Origin: Planctomycetota bacterium
GTDB taxonomy: Bacteria > Planctomycetota > Phycisphaerae > WQYP01 > JAJZKY01
NCBI GenBank assembly: GCA_021803885.1
Contig: JAJZKY010000037.1
Span: forward strand, 1-13,970
Direction of reading: 5' to 3'
DNA length: 13,970 nt
Made by a program: the position numbers and the translations under genes. Positions within the stretch are counted from its first letter, which is position 1. Each line of letters opens with the position of its first letter. Shown here piece after piece: positions 307 to 13,970 of the stretch. A model generated the notes under the pieces. It was given only the letters and a program-made list of their open reading frames with translations, ran no database searches and was not told where the DNA came from.

Positions 307-325
307 TTAGCACTACTTTGGCAGA
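307..325 (+). repeat. IS701-type left end: target duplication TTAG plus 15-bp inverted repeat
   Basis: TTAG (307-310) is the left copy of the target duplication. CACTACTTTGGCAGA (311-325) is the left inverted repeat and matches the complement of 1740-1754 exactly. The identity breaks after 15 bp. Confidence 0.9.
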
Positions 326-1754
326 AAGTTGCGATGCTGGTGATTTTTGGGATTCCCGAATCGGCGTTTGAGTGATTCATGGGAGGTCGGCATGAGAGGA
401 GCCGACCATGGCGAGCCATGATCCGGGGTGCGGCGAGGAACTCGAGCGGTGGCTGGAGCCATTCCTTGCTCGACTTGGCAACAAGACCCGGCGGCGCATG
501 TGTCCGCGCTACGTTGCGGGCCTGATTGGTCCGGGGGATCGCAAGAGCGTGCAGCCGATGGCGGCGCGATTTGCTGCCGGCGAATATGATCGGCTGCATC
601 ATTTCATCGCGGCGGGTCTGTGGGAGATGGCGCCTCTTGAGGCCGAGTTGCTGGCACAGGCCGACCGGCTGGTGGGTGGGGATGACGCCGTGCTGGTGAT
701 CGATGACACGGCGCTGCCGAAAAAGGGTCGCCACTCGGTGGGAGTGGCACCGCAATACGCGTCAGCCCTGGGCAAGAATGCGAACTGCCAGACATTGGTC
801 TCCGCGACGCTGGCACGGCATGAGGTGCCGCTCATGATCGGATTGCGCCTGTTCCTGCCGGAGAGCTGGACGAGCGATCCAACCCGGATGGGCAAGGCGC
901 GCGTGCCGCCAGACTGCCAGAGGTTTCGCACGAAGACGCAGATCGCAATTGAGGAGGTCGACCGCATCAGGGCGGGCGGCGTGCGGTTCGGCTGTGTGCT
1001 CGCCGACGCCGGCTATGGCCTGAGCGCGCCGTTTCGCCAGGCGCTGAGTGCTCGCAATTTGCGGTGGGCTGTGGGGATTCCGTTCAAGCAGAAGGTCTAT
1101 CCGGCTGACGTGGCGCTGATCTTCCCGACCGCCGGCCGCGGCCGTCCACGCCAGAGGCATATCCCGGACAGCAAGTCGATCGCGGCGGAAACCATGCTCG
1201 CCAAGGCGTCCTGGCGGTCGCTCAGCTGGCGCCGCGGCACCAAGGGGCGCCTTGTCGCCCGCTTCGCCGCCGTGCGGGTGCGGGTCGCCGACGGATCGCC
1301 CCAGCGCATCCGCGACATGGGGGCTCAGCACATGCCTGGTGAAGAGGTCTGGCTCATCGGAGAGCGCCGTTCGAACGGCGAGCGCAAATACTACCTCTCC
1401 AACCTGCCGCCAGACACACCGCTCAAGGCGCTTGCTGGTACGATCAAGGCCCGCTGGATCTGCGAGCAGGCCCATCAACAGCTCAAGGAAGAACTTGGTC
1501 TAGACCACTTCGAAGGAAGATCATGGACCGGTCTGCATCGTCATACCCTGATGACCATGATCGCCTACGCCTTCCTCCAGGCCCGCAGGCTCCAGAAAGC
1601 CAGAGGGGGAAAAAAGAATCCCCGGCCCTCCGCCACAACCAAGCCTGCCAGCAGTTCGGCAGGCGATCATCGCCTATCTCGGCGCACCGCCAGACCGATG
1701 TCCGCACTGCTACAGTCCGCTCCGTCACTCACCATATAATCTGCCAAAGTAGTG
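311..1754 (+). mobile_element. Complete IS701-family insertion sequence
   Basis: This 1444-bp element is bounded by perfect 15-bp terminal inverted repeats, CACTACTTTGGCAGA at 311-325 and its complement at 1740-1754. It is flanked by a directly repeated TTAG at 307-310 and 1755-1758. A 4-bp duplication of the form YTAR is, from memory, typical of the IS701 family, and the internal transposase agrees. One DDE transposase gene fills the element. The clean ends and intact target duplication point to a simple, fairly recent insertion. It lies between the minus-strand partial gene at the left edge and rpfF, and it may have altered expression of either neighbour. Confidence 0.92.
408..1739 (+). CDS. 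IS701-family DDE transposase, probably frameshifted near its C-terminus
   Basis: This 443-residue protein is the transposase of the surrounding element. The DDE catalytic triad is visible: VIDDTALPKKG near residues 97-107, VLADAGYG near 198-205 and the acidic QLKEELGLDHFEGRS near residues 358-372. The fold belongs to the IS4-like RNase H superfamily and moves DNA by cut and paste. The last 40 or so residues are low-complexity and unlike a transposase end. A different frame over 1627-1752 encodes a much more family-like tail, with SLPAVRQAIIAYLG and a CPHC motif, ending in a TAG at 1750-1752. One extra base (or two missing) between about 1605 and 1630, a region of G5, A6 and C runs, would explain this. 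The catalytic core is intact, so activity cannot be excluded. Confidence 0.88.
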   Translation: MASHDPGCGEELERWLEPFLARLGNKTRRRMCPRYVAGLIGPGDRKSVQPMAARFAAGEYDRLHHFIAAGLWEMAPLEAELLAQADRLVGGDDAVLVIDDTALPKKGRHSVGVAPQYASALGKNANCQTLVSATLARHEVPLMIGLRLFLPESWTSDPTRMGKARVPPDCQRFRTKTQIAIEEVDRIRAGGVRFGCVLADAGYGLSAPFRQALSARNLRWAVGIPFKQKVYPADVALIFPTAGRGRPRQRHIPDSKSIAAETMLAKASWRSLSWRRGTKGRLVARFAAVRVRVADGSPQRIRDMGAQHMPGEEVWLIGERRSNGERKYYLSNLPPDTPLKALAGTIKARWICEQAHQQLKEELGLDHFEGRSWTGLHRHTLMTMIAYAFLQARRLQKARGGKKNPRPSATTKPASSSAGDHRLSRRTARPMSALLQSAPSLTI

Positions 1755-1758: not shown

Positions 1759-1973
1759 GTGTGCAATCCAAACCTCTTAAACAAGTTTACCGGCATGCGA
1801 AGGTTGCAATCAACGGCATCGGAAAAACTAGCGCATAGCGGTTTTGTTCATTCTCCCTCAAAATCAAATGACCACAGACCCTAATTTCAGGTCATACTCT
1901 GGATGCAACCGCCAGGCGAAGGGGCTCCTGCCAAAACGCATGACGGGCAAGCCTTTACATATGGAGAAATGAA

Positions 1974-2945
1974 ATGAACTTCGTTGATTGTGCCACTGTA
2001 TCCAGCCTTCAGAATGCGAACTCCTCATACCGGCAGAGCAAGGACATGCACCTGCTTTCATTTCAAAGCCTTCTTGAGCACCGTTTCGACAATCTGCGGT
2101 TGGAAATAGATGCATCCAGCAGCGCCTGCTGGTGCTTCATGCAGCCGCAAGGGCGGCCCTCTTATACTCACGAGCTTATGCAAGATATCGGCGAGATGCA
2201 GGATTTGATTACCTCGTCTTTTCCCAGGTCTCCGCGCCGGGAAGACATGCCATTTTCCTGGTTCGTGATGGCATCAGCGGTTCCGGGCATTTATAATCTT
2301 GGCGGCGATCTCGACCATTTCGCTCAGCGCATCCGTCAGGGGGATTTGGAGGCCCTGCGCCATTACGGGCATGTCGCGGTGAACGCGATCCATCGAAACG
2401 CAATTTCGTTCGATGTTCCCGTCATCACCATGGCGCTGGTGCAAGGGGATGCCCTAGGCGGCGGATTTGAACACGCTTTGTCCTTCGACATGATCGTCGC
2501 CGAACGCAGCGCCAAGCTTGGCCTGCCGGAAATCCTGTTCAATATGTTTCCTGGCATGGGAGCTTACAGCTTCCTCTCCCGCCGGATCGATCGCAAGCGC
2601 GCGGAAGAAATGATCCTCTCCGGCCAGATCTATTCAGCCGAAGAGTTGTTCGAGATCGGCGTGGTAGATGTGCTGGCGGAAGATGGTCAAGGTGAGCAGG
2701 CGGTACAGGATTATATCTCCCGCCATAACCGGAAATTTAACGCCCACATGTCCACCTATCGAGCGCGGCGCAGGGTCAACCCGGTGACGCTGGAAGAGCT
2801 GATCGATGTGGTCGATATCTGGGCGGAAGCCGCCTTGAACCTGACTGAAGCGGACCTGCGTAAGATGGACAGACTCTGCGCGGCGCAGGACCGCCGCTTG
2901 GCGGCGATGTTACCTCAGCCGTCCGCAATCATGGCTGCGGAGTAA
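1974..2945 (+). CDS. rpfF: RpfF-like DSF synthase (crotonase fold)
   Basis: This 323-residue enzyme of the enoyl-CoA hydratase/isomerase superfamily resembles Xanthomonas RpfF. RpfF converts 3-hydroxyacyl-ACP to a cis-2-unsaturated fatty acid by combined dehydratase and thioesterase activity, giving the diffusible signal factor. The diagnostic sequences are NLGGDL (108-113, oxyanion-hole region), LVQGDALGGGFEHAL (155-169) and LGLPEILFNMFPGMGAYSF (182-200). The two catalytic glutamates fall at E166 and E186, with the same 20-residue spacing as E141 and E161 of Xanthomonas RpfF. The protein is roughly 30 residues longer than the roughly 289-residue Xanthomonas enzyme, mostly at the N-terminus. 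The start at 1974 is supported by GGAG at 1963-1966; nearby upstream ATGs at 1961 and 1969 hit stops at once, and Met25 is a second possible start. It converges on the rpfC-like gene with a 31-bp gap. No clear promoter or terminator was found in 1759-1973 or 2946-2976. Confidence 0.93.
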   Translation: MNFVDCATVSSLQNANSSYRQSKDMHLLSFQSLLEHRFDNLRLEIDASSSACWCFMQPQGRPSYTHELMQDIGEMQDLITSSFPRSPRREDMPFSWFVMASAVPGIYNLGGDLDHFAQRIRQGDLEALRHYGHVAVNAIHRNAISFDVPVITMALVQGDALGGGFEHALSFDMIVAERSAKLGLPEILFNMFPGMGAYSFLSRRIDRKRAEEMILSGQIYSAEELFEIGVVDVLAEDGQGEQAVQDYISRHNRKFNAHMSTYRARRRVNPVTLEELIDVVDIWAEAALNLTEADLRKMDRLCAAQDRRLAAMLPQPSAIMAAE

Positions 2946-2976
2946 TGGCAGCAGAACGCACAAACGAGATATTGTA

Positions 2977-5475
2977 TCATTGATTATTCACCTTGCGGAT
3001 CGTGCCCAAGGCCATCACGGCCTGCCTAGTCACCTTCAATTCTGCGTGCGCACAGGCGGCAAACGATGCCGCCTGTGATCTCAGTTCAGTCCCCCGCAAT
3101 CCGTGCCAGTTGGAACATAGCTCCCCCAACGCCTTAGCGCCGACATTCGCCGCGCTACTGCGCAAAGCGTGAGCATGATTGCGGAATTCTAGGCTATCAC
3201 CGCGAGTTGCATCACTAACTAACTGGTCGATCAGGTTCTCCGCGTCAGCGAGAAAGTCTGAAAGCAGCTCATGCAGGAAATGGCCATCATTCCCCAACTG
3301 CTGCAGATTGGAGATGATCGCCTCGTCCAAAGGCTGGATGTTCGGCTTGGCCCGCGCTTCAATGGGCGAAGTTGATGACTGCCCGTGGCGTACACGGGCC
3401 ATTTTCTCAACCACCGCAACCAAATCCTGTGGCGCCACAGGCTTAACCAGGCAATCATCCATATCGGCATTACGCCAATCACCATTCGCCTGGGAAAATG
3501 CATCCGCTGTCAGACCAATAATCGGCAAGCGCGTCTGACCGAGCGACATCACACGATACAGCTTGGTCACCTCCAGCCCGTCCATGCCGGGCATATTGAA
3601 GTCCATCAGAACGATATCAAAGCGTTCCCCCTCGTGCTCCAACACATCAATGGCACGATTACCGTCATCCGCCACTGTCACCCTATGGCCCGCTGCTTCC
3701 AGAATACATTTGAACACGCGTTGATTAATGCGGTTGTCGTCCACCAACAGCACATCCCGACTAGTGAGGGAAATCGGCAAGGACGGCCGCACTGGCGCCA
3801 TTGGCATTTCGCTCTCCGGAGAGGCACGCATCTCAGACGCACTGAACCGGCTCGCGATGAGCAGTGCCCGCTGCAGTTCCTCACCTGAGAAATCCTCTGA
3901 CAGCAAAGACACACAGCGTTGCCGAATGGCAATCTCCGGCAGTCCAGGCGCTGCGGATGGATGGATAAGAATGGTCCGGAGAAGTTCCTCGCCAGGCACG
4001 TCCTGAATGTCCCTATCAGCGTAATATTCTATAACTATGCTCATGCCGTCTTTCTCAGCGACGACTGCGTTGGCCGGGTTCATCAACCCCACATTCACCC
4101 CCATCGCGACGAGGGTTTTGCGCAATAAGGACATCTTCAGCGGGTTACTCACGCGCAGCAAAACCTTACCGGCAGGAGGTTGCCAAGCTTCCTCAGTGGC
4201 ACCGAGAGTCTTGATATGGAACCTGAACAGGCTCCCCTCTCCGACCGTGCTTTCAACTGTGATATCCCCGCCCAGCAACCCGACCAGGCGGCGGGTGATT
4301 GCCAACCCAAGGCCGGTTCCGCCGAATTTGTTGAGGATAGAGGCATCGCCTTGGGTAAAATTATCGAAAATTCGGGCCTGCGCTTCAACAGGAATACCAA
4401 TCCCAGTATCCGCGATCTCCCCCCTCAGGACCAGCTCGCCCTCCCCCCCTTCCATAAGGTGACCGTCCAGCGCGACAGTGACACTGCCGGCTTCAGTGAA
4501 TTTCACGGCATTACCAACCAGATTCACCAATATTTCCTGTAATTGCAGACGACTAGTCTTCACACGAAGCGGCGTACGCGGCGTGACATGGATCGTGAAT
4601 GCCAATTTTTTTTCGCGAACTTGGCTTTCGATGATGCGCCGTACGTCAATCAGCAAGGTCAGCAGGTCGAATTCCTCGATTGTGCTGATCATTTGGCCAG
4701 CTTCGATGCGCGATAAGTCAAGCAACTGGTTGATCATCGTCTGCAGGGACCGGCTGGCGACGTCCACCGTCTCGACCATGTCCAGCTGGGCGCTGCCAAG
4801 CGCGCTGGCGCGCAACATCTGGTTCATGCCGATAATGGCGGTTAGCGGCGTGCGCAACTCATGACTGACGCTGGCTAAGAACAAGCTCTTAGCTTTATTG
4901 GCCTTCTCCGCCGCCCGGGTGGCTAAAGAGAGCTTCTTTATCAAAGTGCCCGCATAGGCCGGCAGGATAACCAGCCCAATGAGCAGCCCTGTGGAAAGAT
5001 GCGGTTGTAAAAACCAGAATGGCGTGCTGAGCACAACCAGTAGAAAGCTGAGTGTGGCAACCGGCACCGCGAGGAACAGATACCTAATACCAAAACGAAA
5101 GCCATTCCCGAATATGACCCATAGATATACAGGATAAAACAACGCAACGCGCTCGCCGCCCAGATGCAACTGCAGAGAGAGAAAGCCGCAATCCAGCAGC
5201 AGCGCATAAACCCTGCGGGCTTGGCAAATGCCGGGCCGCCAGATGATGTGAGTAAACCCGCCCAATGCCAGGATAAAATAGACAACCATCCAGGCCAGCG
5301 CGAAATGAGAACTGGCGTCGTCGGTCACGGGGGACAAAATAAGAACGATGAGACCCGCAAAAACCAAGCGGTTGAAGCTCATCTCATGTTCGCTATCCGG
5401 CCGACCGCGCAGACGCTTCGTAAGAATACGAGTCCCATTTCGTATCCTGCTGGCGGAGTGTGTCAGCCAACTCAT
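2977..5475 (-). CDS. rpfC: RpfC-like hybrid sensor histidine kinase (TM - HisKA - HATPase - REC - HPt)
   Basis: An 832-residue inner-membrane kinase expected to sense DSF and start a phosphorelay. The N-terminal juxtamembrane segment (20-30) reads KRLRGRPDSEH, almost the same as the Xanthomonas RpfC segment that is known to bind DSF. About five hydrophobic helices follow (roughly 35-178). Then come the H-box SHELRTPL with H205, the N-box with N322, DTGIG (356-360) and GGTGLG (385-390). A receiver domain spans about 573-692, with acid pair D579/D580, phosphoacceptor D625 and K678. An HPt domain follows at about 715-825, with H769 in HALRSSAANVG. Between kinase and receiver lies an unusual 430-550 region that looks like a decayed receiver, which helps explain the length above the roughly 726 residues of Xanthomonas RpfC. 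The start ATG overlaps the upstream regulator's stop by 4 nt (ATGA), suggesting translational coupling. In Xanthomonas the RpfC receiver also binds RpfF and restrains it; that is plausible here but inferred. Confidence 0.93.
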   Translation of the reverse strand: MSWLTHSASRIRNGTRILTKRLRGRPDSEHEMSFNRLVFAGLIVLILSPVTDDASSHFALAWMVVYFILALGGFTHIIWRPGICQARRVYALLLDCGFLSLQLHLGGERVALFYPVYLWVIFGNGFRFGIRYLFLAVPVATLSFLLVVLSTPFWFLQPHLSTGLLIGLVILPAYAGTLIKKLSLATRAAEKANKAKSLFLASVSHELRTPLTAIIGMNQMLRASALGSAQLDMVETVDVASRSLQTMINQLLDLSRIEAGQMISTIEEFDLLTLLIDVRRIIESQVREKKLAFTIHVTPRTPLRVKTSRLQLQEILVNLVGNAVKFTEAGSVTVALDGHLMEGGEGELVLRGEIADTGIGIPVEAQARIFDNFTQGDASILNKFGGTGLGLAITRRLVGLLGGDITVESTVGEGSLFRFHIKTLGATEEAWQPPAGKVLLRVSNPLKMSLLRKTLVAMGVNVGLMNPANAVVAEKDGMSIVIEYYADRDIQDVPGEELLRTILIHPSAAPGLPEIAIRQRCVSLLSEDFSGEELQRALLIASRFSASEMRASPESEMPMAPVRPSLPISLTSRDVLLVDDNRINQRVFKCILEAAGHRVTVADDGNRAIDVLEHEGERFDIVLMDFNMPGMDGLEVTKLYRVMSLGQTRLPIIGLTADAFSQANGDWRNADMDDCLVKPVAPQDLVAVVEKMARVRHGQSSTSPIEARAKPNIQPLDEAIISNLQQLGNDGHFLHELLSDFLADAENLIDQLVSDATRGDSLEFRNHAHALRSSAANVGAKALGELCSNWHGLRGTELRSQAASFAACAHAELKVTRQAVMALGTIRKVNNQ

Positions 5476-7643
5476 CTTTCGGCCCGTTTCGCATTCAGGA
5501 ACGAGGCCTGAAGCTCTTGGTAATAAATCTCCTTTAGAAACCGCTCGGGCGGTAGCGCCTTGCCTAACAGATAGCCTTGTCCTTCGTCACACCCTTCGGC
5601 TTTCAGCAGGGCAAGCTGGGCACTGGTCTCAATCCCCTCCGCGAGCACACGCAGCTTCAGGATGTGGCCAAGATCAATAATCGTGCGCACGATAGCGAGG
5701 TCATTCTTATTCTCCGCCAATCCCTGAATAAAGGAGCGGTCGATCTTTAACCGGTCGAGAGGGAATTTCTGAATATAGCTCAGTGAGGAATAGCCGGTCC
5801 CAAAATCATCGAGAGATATTGTAACTCCAAGGCCGCGCAAGGCATCAAGTTGGGCAATAGAGTCATCGGCATCCCGTAGCAAAATCCCTTCGGTCAGTTC
5901 CAAATCAAGCGATTTTGGATTGATCCCCGCTTCGGCGATCGCATTAGAAACCGTCTGGAATATCGTCCGGCGGCGGAACTGGATGGAGGAGGTGTTAAGC
6001 CCCACCCGCAATTCAACACCCCGCTTCCCCCAAGCGGCAATCTGGCGACAGGTCTCCTTTATGACCCATTCACTGATCGGCAGAATAAGCCCGGTTTCCT
6101 CCGCGAGGCCCAGGAAAAGATTGGGATATACCATCCCCAAATCCGGGCTTTTCCAACGCAGCAGCGCCTCCACTCCCAACAGCGCTCCGCTGTGCAGATC
6201 AAATTGTGGCTGATAATTGATGATGAATTCCTGCTGAGTGATCGCATTGCGCAGATCGCGTTCCAGATTTACCACCTCACCTGTGGTGGTGCCCATCTCG
6301 ACAGCAAAAAACCGCCACATATTACCACCCGCCAACTTCGCAGAATACATGGCTTGGTCAGAGTTCTTCATCAGCGCCTCGGCATCCTGCGCATCCAGCG
6401 GTGCGATGGAAATGCCGATACTCGCCCCAACATTCAGCGGATCTGGCGACTGTGCACTCTCATTTAACCGCGAAATGATTGTTCCTGCCAGGTTCGCTAT
6501 ATCGTCAGGCCCGCTAATGTTGGTTTGCAGCACAGCGAACTCGTCACCGCCGATGCGCGCGACGGTATCGCCTTCATTTACCACGTCAGTTAGCATATCG
6601 GCGATACGGCGCAGCAGCTTATCGCCCTGCAAATGCCCCTGGGAATCATTGATAGCCTTAAAGCGGTCCAGATCAATAAAGTGCAGCGCAAAATGCTGGT
6701 CGCCTCGGCGGCCCCGCGCAAATTCCCGCTGAATTCGTTCACGCAGTAGCGCCCGGTTCGGCAGTTCGGTCAGCGGATCGTGACTGGCCAGATATTCTAG
6801 ACGTCTTTCGGCATTCCGCCGCTCCGTGATATCGACCGACGTAGTAAGAACCGCGATCGCGACCCCATTCCTGTCGCGAAGCGGCACCTTGGTGGTGAGA
6901 TAAACATGGGTGTCGCCAGAATCGGTCAACACCTCTTCTTCCCTGGATGGTAAGGCTTGACCGGTTTCCAACACCAGCCGGTCGAGCCGCCGGCTTGAGG
7001 CGCCGCGTTTCCGCCCAAACAACGCTTCCACCGGCCGCCCGACTAGATCCGCCGGAATCCCCCCGGCAACAGCCGCCTGCTGGGCATTTACGAAAATACA
7101 GTTGCCGGCGCGGTCTGCCGCGCTGATCATGGCAGGCACCGTGTCGATCACCTGAGCCAGCGCCTCGCGGCTATCCAGCACAAACTGGTTTTGCGTGATG
7201 ATACCCGAGGCAAGGCGGCGTTCAAGCATCTCCGCCCTGCGCGCGGTAATATGCTGATGCGAACGGAGTCTGAGTAGGTTGCGTGCGCGAGTTACAAACT
7301 CAACATGGTCGACCGGGCTGAGCAAGAAATCCGTGGCTCCTGCATCCAGGCAAGCCGCCCGATAGCTACGATCATTATAAGCTGTCACCACAACCACCGG
7401 AATATTGGGATCGTGGGCGCGGATATGTGCCACTAGCTGACCCCCGGTCATGACCGGCATCTTATAGTCAGTAATGATCAGGTCGACCTGATTATTTGGC
7501 AGCCAATCAATCACTAGCGCGGGATTTTCGAAGGTCTCGACTTGGACCTCAAAACCCAGATTTCGGGACAAACGAGCATAAATCCGCCTATTCGTAGGGC
7601 TGTCATCGACAATCGCAATGACAGGTTTGGAAAGCTGCATCAC
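5472..7643 (-). CDS. Response regulator with PAS, GGDEF and EAL domains (cyclic di-GMP turnover)
   Basis: A 723-residue soluble response regulator, first gene of the operon with the rpfC-like kinase. The receiver (about 7-125) has D13/D14, phosphoacceptor D59 and T87, but the expected conserved lysine is S109 in DFLLSPVD. A coiled linker leads to a PAS domain (about 160-275). The GGDEF domain (about 280-445) has an intact RIGGDEF at 363-369. The inhibitory RxxD site is missing, as the equivalent positions (356-359) read NEGD. The EAL domain (about 455-705) keeps EALLRW (492-497), N550, E585, DDFGTGYSSL (612-621), K633, E669 and Q689, so phosphodiesterase activity is expected. Both enzymatic halves look competent; the net direction cannot be read from sequence. 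It occupies the position of rpfG in the Xanthomonas rpfGHC operon, although RpfG is REC-HD-GYP. The start is GTG at 7643 or, as likely, ATG at 7640, preceded by a GATGGGG-type ribosome site. Confidence 0.9.
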   Translation of the reverse strand: MMQLSKPVIAIVDDSPTNRRIYARLSRNLGFEVQVETFENPALVIDWLPNNQVDLIITDYKMPVMTGGQLVAHIRAHDPNIPVVVVTAYNDRSYRAACLDAGATDFLLSPVDHVEFVTRARNLLRLRSHQHITARRAEMLERRLASGIITQNQFVLDSREALAQVIDTVPAMISAADRAGNCIFVNAQQAAVAGGIPADLVGRPVEALFGRKRGASSRRLDRLVLETGQALPSREEEVLTDSGDTHVYLTTKVPLRDRNGVAIAVLTTSVDITERRNAERRLEYLASHDPLTELPNRALLRERIQREFARGRRGDQHFALHFIDLDRFKAINDSQGHLQGDKLLRRIADMLTDVVNEGDTVARIGGDEFAVLQTNISGPDDIANLAGTIISRLNESAQSPDPLNVGASIGISIAPLDAQDAEALMKNSDQAMYSAKLAGGNMWRFFAVEMGTTTGEVVNLERDLRNAITQQEFIINYQPQFDLHSGALLGVEALLRWKSPDLGMVYPNLFLGLAEETGLILPISEWVIKETCRQIAAWGKRGVELRVGLNTSSIQFRRRTIFQTVSNAIAEAGINPKSLDLELTEGILLRDADDSIAQLDALRGLGVTISLDDFGTGYSSLSYIQKFPLDRLKIDRSFIQGLAENKNDLAIVRTIIDLGHILKLRVLAEGIETSAQLALLKAEGCDEGQGYLLGKALPPERFLKEIYYQELQASFLNAKRAER

Positions 7644-7855
7644 CCCATCTCACCGAATGCTGGGGGCGGTTCAAACATGCCAAGCCCTTGCAAGCAGACG
7701 CAGCAAGGCCGAAAACAGGGCATCGGAATATGTTCGCGCTTTCCCTCCCCCTGCAATTTGACCGATCATTTGTGAATTCGCCCTCTACCCTCACAGCTAA
7801 GCATGACTTTATTACAAAACCACTTCTGGTTCCACCTGGTGTGGCTTCCTGACAA
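7644..7855. other. Upstream region of the cyclic di-GMP regulator operon, no gene
   Basis: These 212 bp separate the start of the response-regulator operon from the IS110-family element and must hold the operon's promoter if it survived the insertion. Only weak sigma-70-like hexamers can be seen on the minus strand (around 7727-7756), too poor to call. No convincing ORF is present. The IS110-type element begins a little over 200 bp upstream of the operon start, so it may have removed or supplied control sequences. Confidence 0.4.
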
Positions 7856-7863
7856 TTAGAGTA
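7856..7863 (+). repeat. Possible subterminal repeat of the IS110-family element (transposase 3' side)
   Basis: TTAGAGTA, 11 bp past the transposase stop, is the exact complement of TACTCTAA at 8897-8904. Eight bases is short, so this could be chance; its symmetric placement around the transposase is the only support. Confidence 0.35.
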
Positions 7864-7873
7864 TCCGTGATGG

Positions 7874-8814
7874 TCAAGCGGGGGAATTGGTCCACAAGCG
7901 GTCTGTTTTGAGCAGTGCGTTGGCGATGACGACGAGCTTTCGCATGATGGCTGTGATGGCGAGCTTGGCGGGTTTTCCGGCGTTGATGAGTTGGCGATAC
8001 TTTGCCTTGAGATCTGGGTTGAAGCGAGCGGCGACGAGGGCGGGCATGTAGAGGGCCTGCCTGACATTGGCGCGCCCACCTTGGATGAAACTCTTGCCCT
8101 TCCACTGGCCGGACTGCCGCGCGACGGGGGCGAGACCTGCGAGCGCTGCGGCCTGTTTGTTTTCGAGGGTACCGAGCTCTGGCATGGTCGCGATGAGCTG
8201 GTTGGCGGTCAGTGTCCCGACGCCGTCGATGCTGGTGAGGATTTGGTGGCGTCGGCCAGTGGGGGATCGGCGGCGATGATCCTGGCGATTTCGGCATCGA
8301 GAGCTTCGATGTGGCGCGCTATCTGGTCGAGGCGTTGCCGGCATTGCCGCTTCAGGAATGCGATGGTGAGATTTTTCTCCCGGTTTTTCAGCGCGGTCCG
8401 GTCACGCACGAGCCCGTCGCGGGCGTTGATGAGTTCGGCCAGCTGGACCTGACTTGCGGTTCTGGACGGCCTTATGGGCGGCTGCAGGGTCGCGGCCATC
8501 CGGGCAAGCAGACAGGCATCGATGCGGTCGGTCTTGACCAATGTGCCGGTGGCCTGGGCGAAGCGCCTGGCGCGTTCCGGATTTAGTTTGACGCAAGGAA
8601 AGCTGACAAGCGCTGCCTCAAGCGCACGGTGATAGGTTGCCGTTGCCTCATAGGCGATCCGCTCGATCTCCCATTGTGCTGTCCAGACGATCAGCGCCTT
8701 GTGGCCTTTGGCCGTGTTGGCGAAGCGCCGGCCGATCCCGGCAGGGTGGACATGGCAATCAAGGCTCGCTTTGGAGAGGTCGATCCCGATGGTCTGTGGT
8801 AGAGTGTTACTCAT
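7874..8814 (-). pseudogene. IS110-family transposase, broken by a one-base frameshift
   Basis: The 5' part (8814 to about 8250) encodes the RuvC-like DEDD domain: GIDLSKASLD, YEATATYHRALE and VKTDRIDACLLARMA carry the acidic residues. The 3' part (about 8262 to 7874) encodes the C-terminal transposase domain. Its signature runs from ILTSIDGVGTLTANQL through MPELG, ALAGLAPVARQSGQWKGKS, GGRANVRQALYM and RFNPDLKAKY to AITAIMRKLVVIANALL; the serine in QSGQWKGK is probably the catalytic one. The two halves lie in different minus-strand frames. The break falls at about 8247-8256, where the coding strand reads CTGGCCGACGCC; one additional C after GAC would restore LADRHQILTSID. Restored, the protein would be about 313 residues, normal for the family. 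IS110 elements are not known for programmed frameshifting, so a mutation (or sequencing error) is the simplest reading. Confidence 0.88.
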
Positions 8815-8896
8815 CTTTTCCGCTGTCCCATGCTTGTCATCCGGGTCGAAAACCCCGGTATCCGTTCGGGCCTGATGGAAAAGAAAGGGGCGATCT

Positions 8897-8904
8897 TACT
8901 CTAA
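8897..8904 (-). repeat. Possible subterminal repeat of the IS110-family element (transposase 5' side)
   Basis: TACTCTAA, about 82 bp upstream of the transposase start, is the exact complement of TTAGAGTA at 7856-7863. The same caution about short length applies. Confidence 0.35.
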
Positions 8905-8949
8905 CTCGGTCCCCAAACGACCGGCGTTTTCACGATCCGTCCCCTTCCG

Positions 8950-8979
8950 CCCGTTCCGGGGCGGCCACCCCGGAACGGG
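8950..8979. repeat. Perfect 12-bp inverted repeat with 6-nt loop
   Basis: CCCGTTCCGGGG (8950-8961) and CCCCGGAACGGG (8968-8979) are exact complements separated by CGGCCA. The resulting hairpin would be very stable. There is no T-run on either strand after it, so it is not a typical intrinsic terminator. It lies in non-coding DNA between the IS110-family transposase start and the IS630-type remnant. It could belong to the end or guide-RNA region of the IS110 element, or be a landing site of the kind IS elements favour. Confidence 0.7.
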
Positions 8980-9030
8980 CAAATCAATCTGCCCCAAACA
9001 AACGGAAGTCATAAGACAAGCGGTAGCCGA

Positions 9031-9258: not shown

Positions 9259-9327
9259 TCACCAGTGCATTCTCGCGTGCGATCGATCCGATAGGTGTAT
9301 ATTTCGTCTGTTGAAGACCCGATCCCC

Positions 9328-9341
9328 TCACCAGAGTCCAC
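9328..9341 (-). repeat. Iteron, inverted copy
   Basis: TCACCAGAGTCCAC is the exact complement of the array core GTGGACTCTGGTGA. It lies 69 bp beyond the end of the IS630-type remnant, in the opposite orientation to the main array. Confidence 0.8.
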
Positions 9342-9448
9342 GATGTCACGCCGAAATCACGCTGCAAACTAGCGTCGGCTCCCGGTCCAGTGTTTGCTTA
9401 CCCATTCAGCTCAAACCGAGGATTTTGGTGAGCATTGATCCTGGCAGA

Positions 9449-9462
9449 TCACCAGAGTCCAC
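9449..9462 (-). repeat. Iteron, second inverted copy
   Basis: TCACCAGAGTCCAC is again an exact complement of the core iteron, 121 bp from the previous inverted copy. Confidence 0.8.
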
Positions 9463-9649
9463 AGTTTGAGCCAGAGTCAGGATGCGAACGAGTGTGGATT
9501 TTGTGAGAGGTGTCGTCGGCGAGTGGCAACCAGCCATACGGACCCTGTCAGCTGACAAGGCTGTGCGGCGAATAAGCCTTTGATGTCGTGATGTTGGCCT
9601 TGCGCCCACAAATTATCCCAGAGCTCGGCATAAGCTCGATTACAAGGGC

Positions 9650-9820
9650 GTGGACTCTAGTGAGATGCCATGAGGACCGGCACCAGGGTGTGGACTTTGG
9701 TGAGATGGCATGAAACCTGGCACCAGGGTGTGGACTCTGGTGAGATGGCCTGAAATTCGGCACCGGGGTGTGGACTCTGGTGAGATGACATGAAATTCGG
9801 CACTAGGGCCTTCACTCTAG
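9650..9820 (+). repeat. Iteron array, 40-bp tandem repeats (left part)
   Basis: The core GTGGACTCTGGTGA or one-base variants begins at 9650, 9690, 9730 and 9770, exactly 40 bp apart. The rest of each unit is also conserved (GATGgCaTGAaa..cGGCACcaGGG). A fifth, degenerate unit begins at 9810 and is cut after 11 bases by the IS5-family element. Arrays like this bind the plasmid replication initiator and control copy number and incompatibility. The array lies downstream of the rep gene's 3' end, not between promoter and rep. Confidence 0.85.
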
Positions 9821-10726
9821 GAAACGTGGGCAAACCGGACGGGGGCATTCCCACGACGCGGTGAGATGTGATTCGACGCTGACTTCTTGGATGGAGGTCA
9901 GCGTTGGTTCGTGGATTGATGCACGACGAGGAATGGGGGTTTTTCAGGCCGTTTCTGGCTGAGCCTGGAGCGGTAGGGGGCCGACCGCCCACGGACCATC
10001 GCCGCGTGCTGGACGCGATTTTCTGGATTGCCCGGACCGGGGCTCGGTGGCGGGATCTGCCGGCGTAACTTGGAAGATGGAACTCCGTGCACCGACAATT
10101 CCGGAGCTGAACCGTGAGCGGGATCTGGGACGTGATGCTCGACGCCCTGGCCGATGGTGGCGGTCCGGCGGATACCTTGCAGATGATCGACAGCACCATC
10201 GTCCGGGCTCACCATTGCGCCGCCGGCTTAAAAAGGGGACTCAGAGCCTGGCTCTTGGCGGAGCCCCAAGGTTCCGGCGGCGCAGCCGTTGGAATAAGGG
10301 CGGAGGTCGTTCTCTAGGTGATTTCTCGACCAAGATCCATCTCCGCGCCAACGCTGAGGGGTTGCCCATCGGCATCATCCTGAGCCCCGACGAGGCTCAT
10401 GACAGCACGGCTTATGCCGATCTGATGGAAGAGCGCGAAAGTGACCCCGGCATCCTGCCCGCTGATCGGGGATATGACAGTGTCGCCACCCAGCAGGACG
10501 CACGCGACCGCGGGACAATCCCCGAAATTCCAACCAAGAGAAACCGTCGCGTCCAGCATTCAGTCGATCGCCCTCTCTACGTATTGCGCAATCGCATTGA
10601 GCGCTGCTTCAACAAACGCAAGAACAGCCGCCGGATCGCCACAAGATACGATCGAACCGCCAGCAGCTTCCTCGGCTTCACCATCCTCGCCTCAATCCGT
10701 CTCTGGATCAGAGTCGTCCACGCTTC
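9821..10726 (+). mobile_element. Decayed IS5-family insertion sequence inside the iteron array
   Basis: The ends are imperfect inverted repeats: GAAACGTGGGC at 9821-9831 against GTCCACGCTTC at 10716-10726 (complement GAAGCGTGGAC). CTAG occurs at both junctions (9817-9820 and 10727-10730). Because CTAG is itself palindromic, the target duplication could be 2 to 4 bp (TA to CTAG). Removing the element together with one CTAG copy restores a 40-bp iteron unit exactly, which confirms the boundaries. The single transposase gene carries two stops and a frameshift. Size and protein fit the IS427/IS1031-like part of the IS5 family. Confidence 0.88.
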
Positions 10727-10730
10727 CTAG
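9904..10730 (+). pseudogene. IS5-family transposase with two nonsense codons and a frameshift
   Basis: Reading from about 9904, the frame gives LMHDEEWGFFRPFLAEPG and VLDAIFWIARTGARWRDLPA, the usual N-terminal domain. It then meets TAA at 10066-10068 and TGA at 10108-10110. It resumes in the same frame with VSGIWDVMLDALADGGGPADTLQMIDSTIVRAHHCAAG, which holds the first catalytic D. Near the A5G4 run at 10230-10238 the family sequence continues in the -1 frame: KGTQSLALG, FSTKIHLRANAEGLPIGI, DRGYDS (second D), LRNRIERCF (third residue E) and FLGFTILASIRLWIRVVHAS before TAG at 10728-10730. Some IS5-family subgroups use programmed -1 frameshifting, so the shift alone might be natural, but the two nonsense codons make the gene dead. 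Confidence 0.87.
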
Positions 10731-10811
10731 TAAGATGCCATGAGGACCGTCACCAGGGTGTGGACTCTGGTGAGGAAATCGAGCCAGGCGTGCTGGCGTG
10801 GACTCTGGTGA
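10731..10811 (+). repeat. Iteron array, right part after the IS5-family insertion
   Basis: The remaining 29 bp of the interrupted fifth unit (10731-10759) is followed by a perfect core GTGGACTCTGGTGA at 10760-10773. A second perfect core lies at 10798-10811, 38 bp on. The last core starts about 43 bp from the rep stop codon. Confidence 0.85.
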
Positions 10812-10840
10812 GGCCAGCCTTGATGCGGAAGAGTGGGTGT

Positions 10841-11821
10841 CTATCGGATCGATTGCACGCGAGGACGCACCGGTGGCCGGCTCGATTTCAGAATTACCCC
10901 CTCGTCCACGATATCCACCTGTGCATCTGGATATACCGCAAGAGCCAGCTTCAGCGCGCTCGGCCAGCGTGCCTTGAAATGATATACTTCTCGATAGCCG
11001 CAGCCGAACTGCGCTTTCAGAGCTTTCCAGGTGACGAGCTTTGCGGCGGGCAGGGCGTGCAGGCGGTAGGCCAGCCAGAGGTAGCAATCCAGCGCCCCGG
11101 GGTTGTTGTTGATGGCCTTGATGGCAGCTTCCTCAAGCGGGACCGGATGCTTTTGCAGCTGCTCGAAAAAGCCCTCCGAGAGTCGCGCCATTGAGAGCAT
11201 CGGCTTTCCACCGCCCTCCTCGGTATCTTCGACGAACAGTGCGCCGTCCATAATCGACTGGTTGATCAATCCGACTGATTTGCCACCCTGGATGTGAAAT
11301 GTCAGGCGGCAGCGGCTGATCCTCTCGGCCTGATCCTTGACCAACTTCGCTGTCTTGCCGCCGACGCTTACCCCGATTCGACTCAGCCAGTCCCGCAAAG
11401 AGCGCCCGAGCTCGATTTCTCTCGACCCGGTCCTGATTGCCTCGGTCTGAAGGTAGAGAAGGATAAGTCGAGCATGTGCCCCAAACGGTACACCGACGAA
11501 ATCTAGAGGGCCTTCTTCGCTCCTAGGCTTCCGACCAGGCTCGACGACAAGCCTTGTTCTTTCAATGCTGATTTCCCAAGGCTGATCGTCCGCCAGTCTG
11601 CGATGAGGGAGGGCGCACTGAGCCCAACCCGAATAGGCAAAGCTTAGGGTAGTGTCCTCGTCCCCCATATACTGGGCCGCAGCTTCAACAAAGCTGCGCT
11701 CAATACCGGCATCAAGCGCCCCTGCCCTTCCCCTCGCCTCGATTAGATTATGGATTTCTCCCATCGCATTTTCCAGTGACTCGGTGATCGGACAAATCCG
11801 ATATAGCAAAGTTATCAACAT
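10841..11821 (-). CDS. repA: RepA-like plasmid replication initiator
   Basis: This 326-residue protein belongs to the plasmid RepA family common on alphaproteobacterial plasmids (I believe Pfam RepA_C). It should bind the iterons and open the origin. Family-like stretches are LIEARGRAGALDAGIERSFV (27-46), FAYSGWAQCALPHRRL (61-76), a winged-helix-like VGVPFGAHARLILLYLQTEA (109-128), REIELGRSLRDWLSRIGVSVGGK (134-156) and ALDCYLWLAYRLHALP. The start is uncertain. The ATG at 11821 has no good ribosome site, and its first codons overlap a DnaA-box-like TTATCAACA (11812-11820). Met20 (ATG at 11764-11762) has a GGA seven bases upstream and begins the more family-like MGEIHNLIEARGR. An iteron variant lies just upstream at 11830-11843, suggesting autoregulation. 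The gene is transcribed away from parAB. Confidence 0.88.
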   Translation of the reverse strand: MLITLLYRICPITESLENAMGEIHNLIEARGRAGALDAGIERSFVEAAAQYMGDEDTTLSFAYSGWAQCALPHRRLADDQPWEISIERTRLVVEPGRKPRSEEGPLDFVGVPFGAHARLILLYLQTEAIRTGSREIELGRSLRDWLSRIGVSVGGKTAKLVKDQAERISRCRLTFHIQGGKSVGLINQSIMDGALFVEDTEEGGGKPMLSMARLSEGFFEQLQKHPVPLEEAAIKAINNNPGALDCYLWLAYRLHALPAAKLVTWKALKAQFGCGYREVYHFKARWPSALKLALAVYPDAQVDIVDEGVILKSSRPPVRPRVQSIR

Positions 11822-11829
11822 CTGTCGCT

Positions 11830-11843
11830 GTGGACTTTGGAGA
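11830..11843 (+). promoter_or_regulatory. Iteron variant upstream of rep, possible operator
   Basis: GTGGACTTTGGAGA matches 12 of 14 positions of the iteron core and lies 8 bp before the upstream rep start codon. Initiator binding here would overlap the rep leader, a common autorepression arrangement; the function is inferred. Confidence 0.55.
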
Positions 11844-11850
11844 GGAAGCT

Positions 11851-11888
11851 ATTCGTTAGATTATTAGATTCTTATTATTAGTTTCATC
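11851..11888. other. AT-rich candidate unwinding element
   Basis: A compact A+T-rich run stands out in GC-rich surroundings and contains TTAGATTA at 11856-11863 and TTAGATTC at 11864-11871 back to back. Its place between iteron-like sites and a DnaA box suits a DNA unwinding element. Confidence 0.55.
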
Positions 11889-11889
11889 G

Positions 11890-11900
11890 CAAGAGTCCAC
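11890..11900 (-). repeat. Short iteron core CAAGAGTCCAC, copy 1
   Basis: The complement, GTGGACTCTTG, shares GTGGACTCT with the iteron core and then diverges. An identical 11-mer occurs at 11946-11956 and a shorter GAAGTCCAC at 11970-11978. Confidence 0.6.
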
Positions 11901-11945
11901 GGGATAATCCTGTTAAGTCGTTGATTTTCCACTTCTGGCCTCTCT

Positions 11946-11956
11946 CAAGAGTCCAC
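11946..11956 (-). repeat. Short iteron core CAAGAGTCCAC, copy 2
   Basis: Identical to the 11-mer at 11890-11900, 56 bp away. A related GAAGTCCAC follows at 11970-11978. Confidence 0.6.
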
Positions 11957-11995
11957 AGATTTTATCACTGAAGTCCACAAGAGAGGCTCACGACC

Positions 11996-12004
11996 TGTGG
12001 ATAA
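11996..12004 (-). promoter_or_regulatory. DnaA box (perfect consensus)
   Basis: TGTGGATAA on the plus strand is the complement of TTATCCACA, the consensus DnaA binding site. It lies beside the short iteron cores, which supports host DnaA taking part in origin opening. Confidence 0.75.
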
Positions 12005-12041
12005 GATCCTGCCGACTGGATCCGACTCGGGGTGCCTCCCA

Positions 12042-12063
12042 CCCGCGAATCCGGGACCGCGGG
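12042..12063. repeat. GC-rich hairpin, 6-bp stem
   Basis: CCCGCG (12042-12047) and CGCGGG (12058-12063) can pair around a 10-nt loop, between the origin and parA. No T-run follows directly; no role is assigned. Confidence 0.35.
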
Positions 12064-12170
12064 CTCACCAAAAAATGGATAGAACGGTATCTCAAACACT
12101 TAATGGCGGTTCTTCAGCTATCATAAGAAGCCGAATTTTCTGGACAACAAGTCGCAAGGTCCATATGACA

Positions 12171-12208
12171 TGACGGGTAACGCCTGTCAGGGCGTATTTT
12201 TACCGTCA
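12171..12208. promoter_or_regulatory. Interrupted inverted repeat upstream of parA (operator or centromere candidate)
   Basis: TGACGGgTAA (12171-12180) pairs with TTACCGTCA (12200-12208) with one bulged base, and an inner CGCC/GGCG (12181-12184 and 12191-12194) closes around TGTCAG. The inner stem is followed by TTTTT (12197-12201), so in RNA it could act as a weak terminator or attenuator. In DNA it could be a ParA/ParB operator or centromere site. It ends 40 bp before the parA start codon. Confidence 0.55.
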
Positions 12209-12248
12209 GATCGAGGCTTCATTTAGTCTTCGGAGGGTTTCAATCATA

Positions 12249-13442
12249 ATGGACCAGATCGAGTCGCCGCCTGACAAAATCGTCCGACATGCGACACTTT
12301 TGTCCAATCAACTTCATGTATTGCGGCAGCGCATGTATCCACCGGAGGCACAGAAATCCCTCAGGCCGTTTGCAACGCATGAAGTCTCGTCACTGACGTC
12401 TATCCCCGAATCGACGCTGCGGACGATGTCGATTGAGGGTAAGGGCCCAATCCCTTCGCGGCGCGAAAACAACCACCGGACTTATACGCTTGAGCAGGTC
12501 AATGAGCTCAGGCAGTTCTTTGCCGCACAGAAGCCCAACGATGCTCTCCGCTACCTACCTCGCCGGCGCTCTGGCGAACACCTCCAGATCCTCGGAGTCG
12601 TGAATTTCAAGGGCGGTTCAGCCAAAACCACCTCAAGCGCGCATCTCTGCCACTACCTGGCGCTGCAGGGCTATCGGGTGCTGGCGATCGATCTCGATCC
12701 CCAGGCCAGCCTTTCTGCAATGTTCGGTGCCCAGCCCGAACTTGATGTCGGTGCCAACGAGACGATTTTCGCATCTCTGCGAAGCGGCGAAGACAGGCGC
12801 CCGATGCGCGAGATCGTGCGCAAGACATACTTTACCGGGATCGATCTCATTCCTGGCAACATCGAAGTCATGGAGTACGAGCACGAGACCCCTCGCCTTC
12901 TCGCTGAGAGCAACGGCGGCGAAGCGGCTCTGTTCTTCGAGCGTCTCAGGATGTCAATTGCCGAGGTCGAAGACGACTATGACATCGTCATTCTCGACAC
13001 GCCGCCATCACTGGGCTTCCTGACCCTTGGCGCCATCTGTGCCGCTACCGGGCTAATTGTTACGGTTCATCCGGCGATGCTCGATATGATGTCAATGTCC
13101 CAGTTCCTTTTGATGATGGGGGATCTGATCAGTGTGATCGGTAGTGCTGGCGCAGCCCTGCAGCAGGACTTCCTCAAATACCTGATCACGCGACATGACC
13201 CTAACGACCAGCCGCAGACGCAAATCGTCTCGTTGATGCGCCACCTTTTCGCCGATGACGTCTTTATTCCGACCGCGATCGAAAGCACTGCGGTAGAGAG
13301 TGCCGGGCTACACAAGAAGAGCGTCTACGAACTGGCGCCCGGTGATGTCGGTCGTGACACATACCGGCGTGCGCGGGATTCCATGGATGCCGTCAATTTC
13401 GCGATCCTCGAGATGATCAACAGGGCCTGGGGGCGCAAATGA
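12249..13442 (+). CDS. parA: ParA partition ATPase (RepABC-type RepA/ParA)
   Basis: A 397-residue ATPase that, with ParB and a centromere site, segregates the plasmid. The N-terminal 100 or so residues form a DNA-binding extension with a helix-turn-helix-like stretch (VSSLTSIPESTLRTMSIEG, about 46-64, then RRENNHRTYTLEQVNELRQF). This is typical of large ParAs that repress their own operon. The deviant Walker A motif is KGGSAKTT at 121-128, with signature lysine K121 and K126. Walker A' is LAIDLDPQAS (145-154) and Walker B is DIVILDTPPS (245-254). The start at 12249 has GGAGGG 11 bases upstream, a slightly long spacing. The stop overlaps the parB start by 4 nt (ATGA), indicating one operon. 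Length and sequence fit the ParA subtype of alphaproteobacterial repABC plasmids, although the initiator here is not RepC. Confidence 0.95.
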   Translation: MDQIESPPDKIVRHATLLSNQLHVLRQRMYPPEAQKSLRPFATHEVSSLTSIPESTLRTMSIEGKGPIPSRRENNHRTYTLEQVNELRQFFAAQKPNDALRYLPRRRSGEHLQILGVVNFKGGSAKTTSSAHLCHYLALQGYRVLAIDLDPQASLSAMFGAQPELDVGANETIFASLRSGEDRRPMREIVRKTYFTGIDLIPGNIEVMEYEHETPRLLAESNGGEAALFFERLRMSIAEVEDDYDIVILDTPPSLGFLTLGAICAATGLIVTVHPAMLDMMSMSQFLLMMGDLISVIGSAGAALQQDFLKYLITRHDPNDQPQTQIVSLMRHLFADDVFIPTAIESTAVESAGLHKKSVYELAPGDVGRDTYRRARDSMDAVNFAILEMINRAWGRK

Positions 13443-13970
13443 GCAAGAAGCCATCACGATCGATCGTCGGCAGCTTCAACCTGCTTTCCGAATCCCTGCG
13501 CCCCGACAAAGAACCGGCCGAACCAAACAATCCGTCTTTCTCCCCCGCATCTCACCACACACCCAGGATGCCGGCCGGCGTTGTCGCGGCCACCGAGCGG
13601 TCGATCTCCCAACTCCGCGAGGAGCGTGACCAGCTCAGGGCCAGGCTTTCGAATATGGCCCCCGATGAGTTGGACCCGGCCATCTTGGAGCCCTCCCCGA
13701 TCCCTGATCGTCTGCCGGATGATGATCAGGAAGGCTTTAATGCCCTGGTGGATTCAATTTCTGCCGAGGGACAGAAGCTTCCGATTCAAGTCCGCCCCCA
13801 CCCGTCCAAGCCCGGTCGCTACCAGATCGTCTATGGCCACCGTCGCTGGAGAGCCGCCCAGCATCTGGGTGTCAAAGTCAGGGCGTTCGTTGTCGACCTG
13901 GACGACCGGGAACTGATCATCACGCAAGGACTGGAAAACGAGTCCCGACAGGATCTGAGCTGGATTGAGC
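13439..13970 (+). CDS. parB: ParB partition protein, N-terminal part (runs off the right edge)
   Basis: A ParB/RepB-family protein, with the first 177 residues in the window. It starts MSKKPSRSIVGSFNLLSESL, a basic N-terminal tail that in this family contacts ParA. A charged, probably helical segment (SISQLREERDQLRARL) precedes the ParB N-terminal domain. That domain carries LVDSISAEGQKLPIQVRP, the nucleotide-binding box YGHRRWRAAQHLG, and the ENESRQDLSWIE motif that ends at the window edge. The HTH and dimerisation domains lie beyond the window. The ATG overlaps the parA stop by 4 nt, so the two are probably translationally coupled. It should bind a parS site not identified here. Confidence 0.93.
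   Translation, partial: MSKKPSRSIVGSFNLLSESLRPDKEPAEPNNPSFSPASHHTPRMPAGVVAATERSISQLREERDQLRARLSNMAPDELDPAILEPSPIPDRLPDDDQEGFNALVDSISAEGQKLPIQVRPHPSKPGRYQIVYGHRRWRAAQHLGVKVRAFVVDLDDRELIITQGLENESRQDLSWIE

Follow-up and report, generated by a model that had tools for sequence, protein, structure and literature searches.

The DSF-type module in the window

The stretch of DNA analysed here, hereafter the window, comprises 13,970 nucleotides of contig JAJZKY010000037.1 (assembly GCA_021803885.1, filed under Planctomycetota) and carries three adjoining genes that resemble the diffusible signal factor (DSF) quorum-sensing genes of Xanthomonas. The first, rpfF (1974..2945, plus strand), encodes a DSF-synthase homologue of 323 amino acids (aa). 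The second (2977..5475, minus strand) encodes an RpfC-type hybrid histidine kinase of 832 aa, and the third (5472..7643, minus strand), standing in the place of RpfG, encodes a response regulator of 723 aa with the domain order REC-PAS_4-GGDEF-EAL, which starts at a GTG at 7643 or at the next ATG at 7640. The kinase start and the regulator stop overlap by four bases (ATGA), and this pair is convergent with rpfF, 31 bp separating the stop codons.

The three proteins (rpfF, kinase and regulator) are 92, 86 and 91% identical to their orthologues in Acidocella aminolytica (locus L001), which excludes chance open reading frames (ORFs). An initial annotation had described an intact synthase, sensor and partner regulator, arranged as the convergent rpfF and regulator-sensor operon of Xanthomonas and ending in a different output protein; the ORF calls and the conservation in A. 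aminolytica bear out each of these points, the difference being REC-PAS-GGDEF-EAL instead of REC-HD-GYP.

Two core DSF perception systems, RpfC-RpfG and RpfR, have been described, with accessory sensors beside them (PMC4504480), and a 2026 review again names the same two (PMC13220807). The accessory sensors include BCAM0227 and RpfS, and the RpfR system has been located in Beta- and Gammaproteobacteria (PMC8846402). Within the portions of the DSF literature consulted (PMC4504480, PMC9040811, PMC8357829, PMC6361424, PMC5391125, PMC9592645, PMC8846402, PMC13220807), neither an RpfC with a REC-PAS-GGDEF-EAL regulator nor naturally plasmid-borne rpf genes are described.

The synthase homologue and the kinase

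RpfF is a crotonase whose best matches in the PDB are RpfF structures (175 bits), with the best other crotonase at 60 bits; the grouping with ordinary enoyl-CoA hydratases that had been raised as the contrary outcome is not seen in this comparison. Against the wider family NF006452 the protein scores 377 bits (cut-off 177). The key residues reported for RpfF of Xanthomonas campestris pv. campestris (Xcc) are the catalytic E141 and E161, with G86 and G138 (PMC9040811). They correspond to E166, E186, G110 and G162 in the window, and all four are present in 76 of 77 alignment rows, the exception being a split copy (L251).

The kinase, judged from domain calls and an alignment with a xanthomonad-like kinase (L138), begins with a membrane sensor homologous to that of RpfC and continues as HisKA-HATPase-REC-HPt. 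In Xcc RpfC, R15, D17, S18, E19 and Q22 of the short sensor are reported to be required for DSF sensing (PMC5391125), and four of the five are kept here as R25, D27, S28 and E29. Across 130 compared kinases, 17 of which have no classed regulator, the relay residues H205 and D625 are invariant and H769 is present in 129. Sensor profiles were trained on 54 such kinases, 11 of which belong to types other than GGDEF-EAL; they likewise matched a positive control outside the training set, the sensor of L138, whose RpfF is 87% identical to that of Xcc and which adjoins a REC-HD-GYP gene. The L138 kinase ORF holds two copies of the sensor domain, which may reflect an rpfH-like sequence that shares the reading frame of rpfC.

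The response regulator

Asp59 and Thr87 of the regulator REC are conserved across all output types. The GGDEF domain is intact, and the EAL domain holds the expected residue at all ten positions checked; we take these key REC, GGDEF and EAL positions from general family knowledge. The net activity expected from this composition would be that of a phosphodiesterase.

That the regulator is simply RpfG, and the module an ordinary RpfFCG system that happens to lie on a plasmid, would fit the shared gene order, the RpfC-type kinase and the kindred REC. The domain content rules this out for the regulator itself: it has no HD-GYP domain, and its C-terminal part is PAS-GGDEF-EAL, a form that recurs in 42 of 80 loci (the best 80 of 145). 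We consider an ordinary RpfFCG system here very unlikely.

The same domain order invites comparison with RpfR, which in Burkholderia and Cronobacter responds to the Burkholderia diffusible signal factor (BDSF) and is likewise encoded by a gene for a PAS-GGDEF-EAL protein convergent with rpfF. On this alternative the PAS domain would bind the signal directly, and the kinase would be secondary or a second input. The PAS domain does match RpfR weakly by profile, at 27 bits (17 bits for structure 6dgg), it is common to the EAL, PAS-kinase and PAS-only regulators discussed below, and the PAS_4 domain of RpfS has been reported to bind DSF (PMC5391125). Other PAS folds, however, match equally well or better, and only one of the four BDSF-contacting residues that were altered by mutation in the B. 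cenocepacia protein (S168, N171, R186 and N201; PMC6361424) is kept in what is a weak profile alignment, S168 being Ser, N171 Leu, R186 Glu and N201 Lys. RpfR, moreover, carries an N-terminal FI domain where the window regulator has REC, and it has no RpfC partner. We set the regulator aside as an RpfR on the REC at its front and the single retained contact, and regard direct PAS reception as unlikely.

A further set of loci combines rpfF with GGDEF-EAL genes. In megaplasmids of Methylobacterium and Sphingomonas (L081, L082, L123, L124), rpfF converges on or overlaps a GGDEF-EAL gene and RpfF is 48-51% identical to that of the window; unlike the window, the stretches read there contain neither an RpfC-type kinase nor a REC regulator. 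On the Methylorubrum extorquens AM1 megaplasmid (L121, L254), an RpfF homologue lies about 217 kb from an RpfC-type kinase whose sensor domain is the same; in the stretch read, that kinase is not accompanied by a REC regulator.

Kinship of the REC domain with RpfG

We searched regulator residues 1-165 against 5.8 billion proteins, keeping candidates of about 165-525 aa and so leaving out full-length orthologues; a threshold of E 0.001 left 147 of the 431 candidates, and the order given here is that among the 120 matches listed. The list is headed by pieces that consist of REC by itself, of REC-PAS or of REC-PAS-GGDEF. Other kinds of output begin with PAS-HisKA proteins at row 31 (P0151), followed from row 87 (P0207) by HD-GYP regulators, three of which (P0213, P0219, P0223) carry the source name RpfG. 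REC-GGDEF proteins without PAS follow lower down, from P0229, with a REC-EAL protein at P0239; an exception is P0139, a protein of 432 aa in which REC and GGDEF but not PAS were called and that ranks among the top pieces.

A tree of 87 REC domains, built on 135 columns and with few controls, places the rpf regulators of every output type in one group (66 rows, support 92); the kinases' own REC domains and 11 of the 12 controls lie outside it. The remaining control, L167c, adjoins an rpfF and is no true control; together with the alphaproteobacterial REC domains it forms a starred set of 48 within the rpf group. The kinship of the window REC with that of RpfG points to an exchange of output behind a conserved sensor: the part behind an RpfG-like REC would have been replaced, and RpfF, RpfC and the REC itself retained. 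Two gammaproteobacterial GGDEF-EAL regulators (L140 and L141) fall among the HD-GYP REC domains (support 84-88), so that a similar swap has probably happened twice, apparently independently; in both of these rpf clusters, whose regulators are REC-GGDEF-EAL, the genes stand in tandem.

In other Alphaproteobacteria, homologous RpfF, RpfC-sensor and REC-PAS sequences are joined to a histidine kinase or to no output at all. Regulators of the REC-PAS-HisKA-HATPase form occur at L046, L160-L166, L168-L172, L174 and L175 (PAS was not called in L172), and an RpfC-type kinase adjoining such a REC-bearing second kinase could constitute a kinase cascade. Regulators that end directly after REC-PAS (253-291 aa) lie beside RpfF and an RpfC-type kinase at L199, L201, L202, L206, L211, L213, L220 and L222.

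Distribution of the module

RpfF relatives are encoded at 145 places. Within the best 80, the complete triad is present at 42 loci, at two of which a contig end truncates the regulator; 40 of the 42 carry a class name, in every case Alphaproteobacteria, and the named orders are Acetobacterales or Hyphomicrobiales. A profile-based rule counts 41 triads in the same 80, adding L069 (Gammaproteobacteria) and dropping L006 and L044, whose regulators are contig-cut. Further samples, which overlap partly and were classed by profiles from the module proteins, cover the family of A. aminolytica as the search tool delimits it, its genus, the Alphaproteobacteria and the Gammaproteobacteria.

In the family, RpfF is found in 73 of 299 genomes (E 1e-40), and its 74 regions comprise 35 with a kinase and a REC-GGDEF-EAL regulator, 10 with a kinase and REC-PAS alone, 5 with a kinase only, 2 with a regulator only and 22 with neither (29, 10, 3, 2 and 9 for the 53 regions uncut near RpfF). 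The genus itself is patchy, with RpfF in 6 of 38 genomes (E 1e-30). The alphaproteobacterial class sample has RpfF in 24 of 385 genomes (E 1e-35); 15 of its 25 regions show a kinase with a REC-PAS-histidine kinase, 2 a REC-GGDEF-EAL regulator and 8 neither (11, 2 and 5 of the 18 uncut). Xcc RpfF as query detects RpfF in 67 of 369 gammaproteobacterial genomes (E 1e-30), and 20 better-scoring places among the 68 divide into 10 with REC-HD-GYP, 2 with REC-GGDEF-EAL and 8 with a kinase for which no regulator was found nearby.

Over all loci, 65 distinct ones (73 with repeats) have the kinase and a REC-PAS-GGDEF-EAL regulator by profile, and 57 of the 65 are convergent like the window. The initial annotation had described the different output protein for a module on a plasmid. 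The swap does not belong to the plasmid: it is the common form in a large alphaproteobacterial group, and in at least seven genomes the module lies on contigs above 1 Mb (L007, L026, L042, L043, L223, L230 and L177, with L208 being the same place as L043) and is thus chromosomal there. At three loci (L193, L195, L031) rpfF adjoins the gene for a REC-PAS-GGDEF-EAL regulator and no RpfC-type kinase was found in the neighbourhood, and the rpf cluster of Breoghania (L047) is fragmented, with kinase and regulator in several frames, and is apparently decaying.

Plasmid neighbourhood and possible mobility

DNA homology with the 21-kb A. aminolytica locus (blastn, E 1e-5; 86.8%) covers 1883-7840 only, that is, the three genes with about 90 bp of upstream DNA before rpfF (1883..1973, plus strand) and about 200 bp before the regulator-kinase operon (7644..7840, minus strand). 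The neighbours differ, being glutamine synthetases, a transporter and a transposase fragment in L001, an epimerase and a glycosyltransferase in L030, and an aminotransferase in L002, which indicates that the block occupies different places. An inverted repeat, CCGTCAGGC/GCCTGACGG, precedes rpfF in L001 (about 9930-9975) and L030 (7268-7301); it is degenerate in the window and not general.

On its left the module is flanked by an IS701-family insertion sequence (311..1754, plus strand) with a transposase at 408-1739, 15-bp terminal inverted repeats and TTAG at both ends (307-310 and 1755-1758), a likely target duplication. On its right lies an IS110-family element (7856..9022, minus strand), about 83% identical to Sphingobium plasmid copies and probably inactive because its transposase reading frame is split in two. 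Since the two flanking elements belong to different families, the module is not a composite transposon.

Beyond the IS110-family element are iteron-like repeats, GTGGACTCTGGTGAG, on either strand with at most one mismatch (9327, 9448, 9650, 9690, 9730, 9770, 10760 and 10798; span 9327..10812), genes for a RepA_C plasmid replication protein (10841..11821, minus strand) and a RepA/ParA partition ATPase (12249..13442, plus strand), and a RepB/ParB partition gene (13439..13970, plus strand) cut by the window end. The repeats are interrupted by about 0.9 kb (about 9796-10726) that includes an IS5-family transposase remnant (10047..10730, plus strand) and is absent from a related A. multivorum plasmid. 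The rep and par genes lie 3.2 and 4.6 kb from the module, where the initial annotation had given about 5 kb for both, and window positions 10727-13970 are 96.4% identical in DNA to plasmid unnamed4 of Acidiphilium multivorum JZ-6, typed as conjugative in PLSDB. That plasmid has no place covering 80% of the module, and its 33.75-kb stretch (L084) lacks RpfF. The carrier appears to be a plasmid of an acid-loving alphaproteobacterium of the Acidiphilium/Acidocella group; the contig could instead represent an integrated plasmid. No transfer gene was recognised among the window ORFs scanned.

Across 72,556 plasmid records, none covers 80% of the module DNA at blastn sensitivity (70 match some of it) and every RpfF match is below 60% identity, the best-ranked at 50.6%. 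None of the best 5000 records covers 80% of the kinase, and all regulator matches in the best 5000 are below 60%. The three-gene cluster recurs in many genomes, and no other plasmid record with the module was found; the window is the only plasmid copy at these search sensitivities, at which distant copies could be missed.

In the RpfF and kinase trees the window groups with A. aminolytica, then with L030 and A. facilis; together with the sequence matches and conserved residues, these trees support the RpfF and RpfC-like identities first assigned. The sequences of Ancylobacter, Kaistia and Chelatococcus are placed next to Acidocella, inside Acetobacterales, and forcing the eight Hyphomicrobiales rows together is rejected in quick trees (approximately unbiased test, p 0.0024 for the kinase and 1e-10 for RpfF), which supports transfer of the block between orders. 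Mobility of the module is plausible.

A proposed circuit and its weighing

We propose, with a probability of about 0.72, that the window holds a self-contained DSF-family quorum-sensing circuit of an alphaproteobacterial type beside a plasmid replication region. RpfF would make a cis-2-unsaturated fatty acid, which the RpfC-type kinase would sense at the membrane through the short, conserved sensor that adjoins its first membrane helix. A relay from His205 through Asp625 to His769 would then pass phosphate to Asp59 of the regulator, whose PAS and GGDEF-EAL domains would alter cyclic di-GMP (c-di-GMP). The likeliest agent is the EAL phosphodiesterase, which is intact, a sign of action that we infer from the residues.

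Several observations weigh against this circuit. RpfF scores 209 bits against the NCBIfam RpfF equivalog NF053515, under the cut-off of 550, for which reason it is termed an RpfF homologue and not a confirmed DSF synthase, and the RpfF trees contain no ordinary enoyl-CoA hydratase outgroup (their Burkholderia row is L125). Neither rpfB nor clp was recognised among the window ORFs scanned. The position of Xcc Q22 is M32 in the window kinase; across the compared kinases it is Gln at 19/19 HD-GYP and 14/15 PAS-kinase loci, Met or Ile at 64/69 GGDEF-EAL loci and Met at 10/10 PAS-only loci, and the replacement in sensors of the GGDEF-EAL type may reflect a different ligand. The usual conserved REC lysine, whose position we likewise assume from family knowledge, is Ser109, as it is Ser in 58/66 EAL, 14/15 PAS-kinase and 11/11 PAS-only alphaproteobacterial regulators (19/19 HD-GYP regulators have Lys or Arg), so that signalling by phosphorylation may be atypical. 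The GGDEF domain is intact and has a degenerate I-site (N356), so that c-di-GMP could on balance rise or fall. Lastly, some RpfF copies are solitary: 22 of the 74 family regions and 8 of the 25 class regions (9 of 53 and 5 of 18 when uncut) show no kinase and no regulator in the vicinity.

The score, the replaced glutamine and the solitary copies in the class sample would also suit a crotonase with another fatty-acid job, next to a kinase pair that senses something else, such as acid or membrane stress. The catalytic residues and four of the five sensor residues are nevertheless kept, and RpfF and kinase distances correlate (Spearman 0.80 over 68 taxa, uncorrected for shared ancestry). We judge such an unrelated function rather unlikely, and favour the self-contained DSF-type circuit.

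A broader and more tentative proposal, which we rate as doubtful at present, is that Alphaproteobacteria have a third DSF architecture. Its fixed core would be RpfF-RpfC-REC-PAS, its output would be interchangeable (GGDEF-EAL, histidine kinase or none), and the PAS domain would serve as a second input, so that two conditions would be needed at once; the whole would travel as one 6-kb block that plasmids install and the host lineage rewires.

Implications

A survey of 83 acidophiles reported DSF systems in Leptospirillum and Acidithiobacillus, and Acidocella is not mentioned in the consulted portion of its main text (PMC9040811). The present module suggests that acidophiles such as Acidocella also take part in DSF signalling. 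Beside the two core perception systems stands a third, large group in which the sensor is still of the Xanthomonas type and the output has been replaced. That the sensing core is conserved while its outputs are exchanged within Alphaproteobacteria is a more interesting fact than the plasmid location. Counting HD-GYP, four output forms are available, and they provide a natural series in which to ask which parts of a quorum circuit are fixed and which are exchangeable. The plasmid copy, in turn, allows a test of whether a host can gain a complete fatty-acid signalling circuit in a single step; it is possible that such a plasmid would make its recipient a producer and a responder at once.

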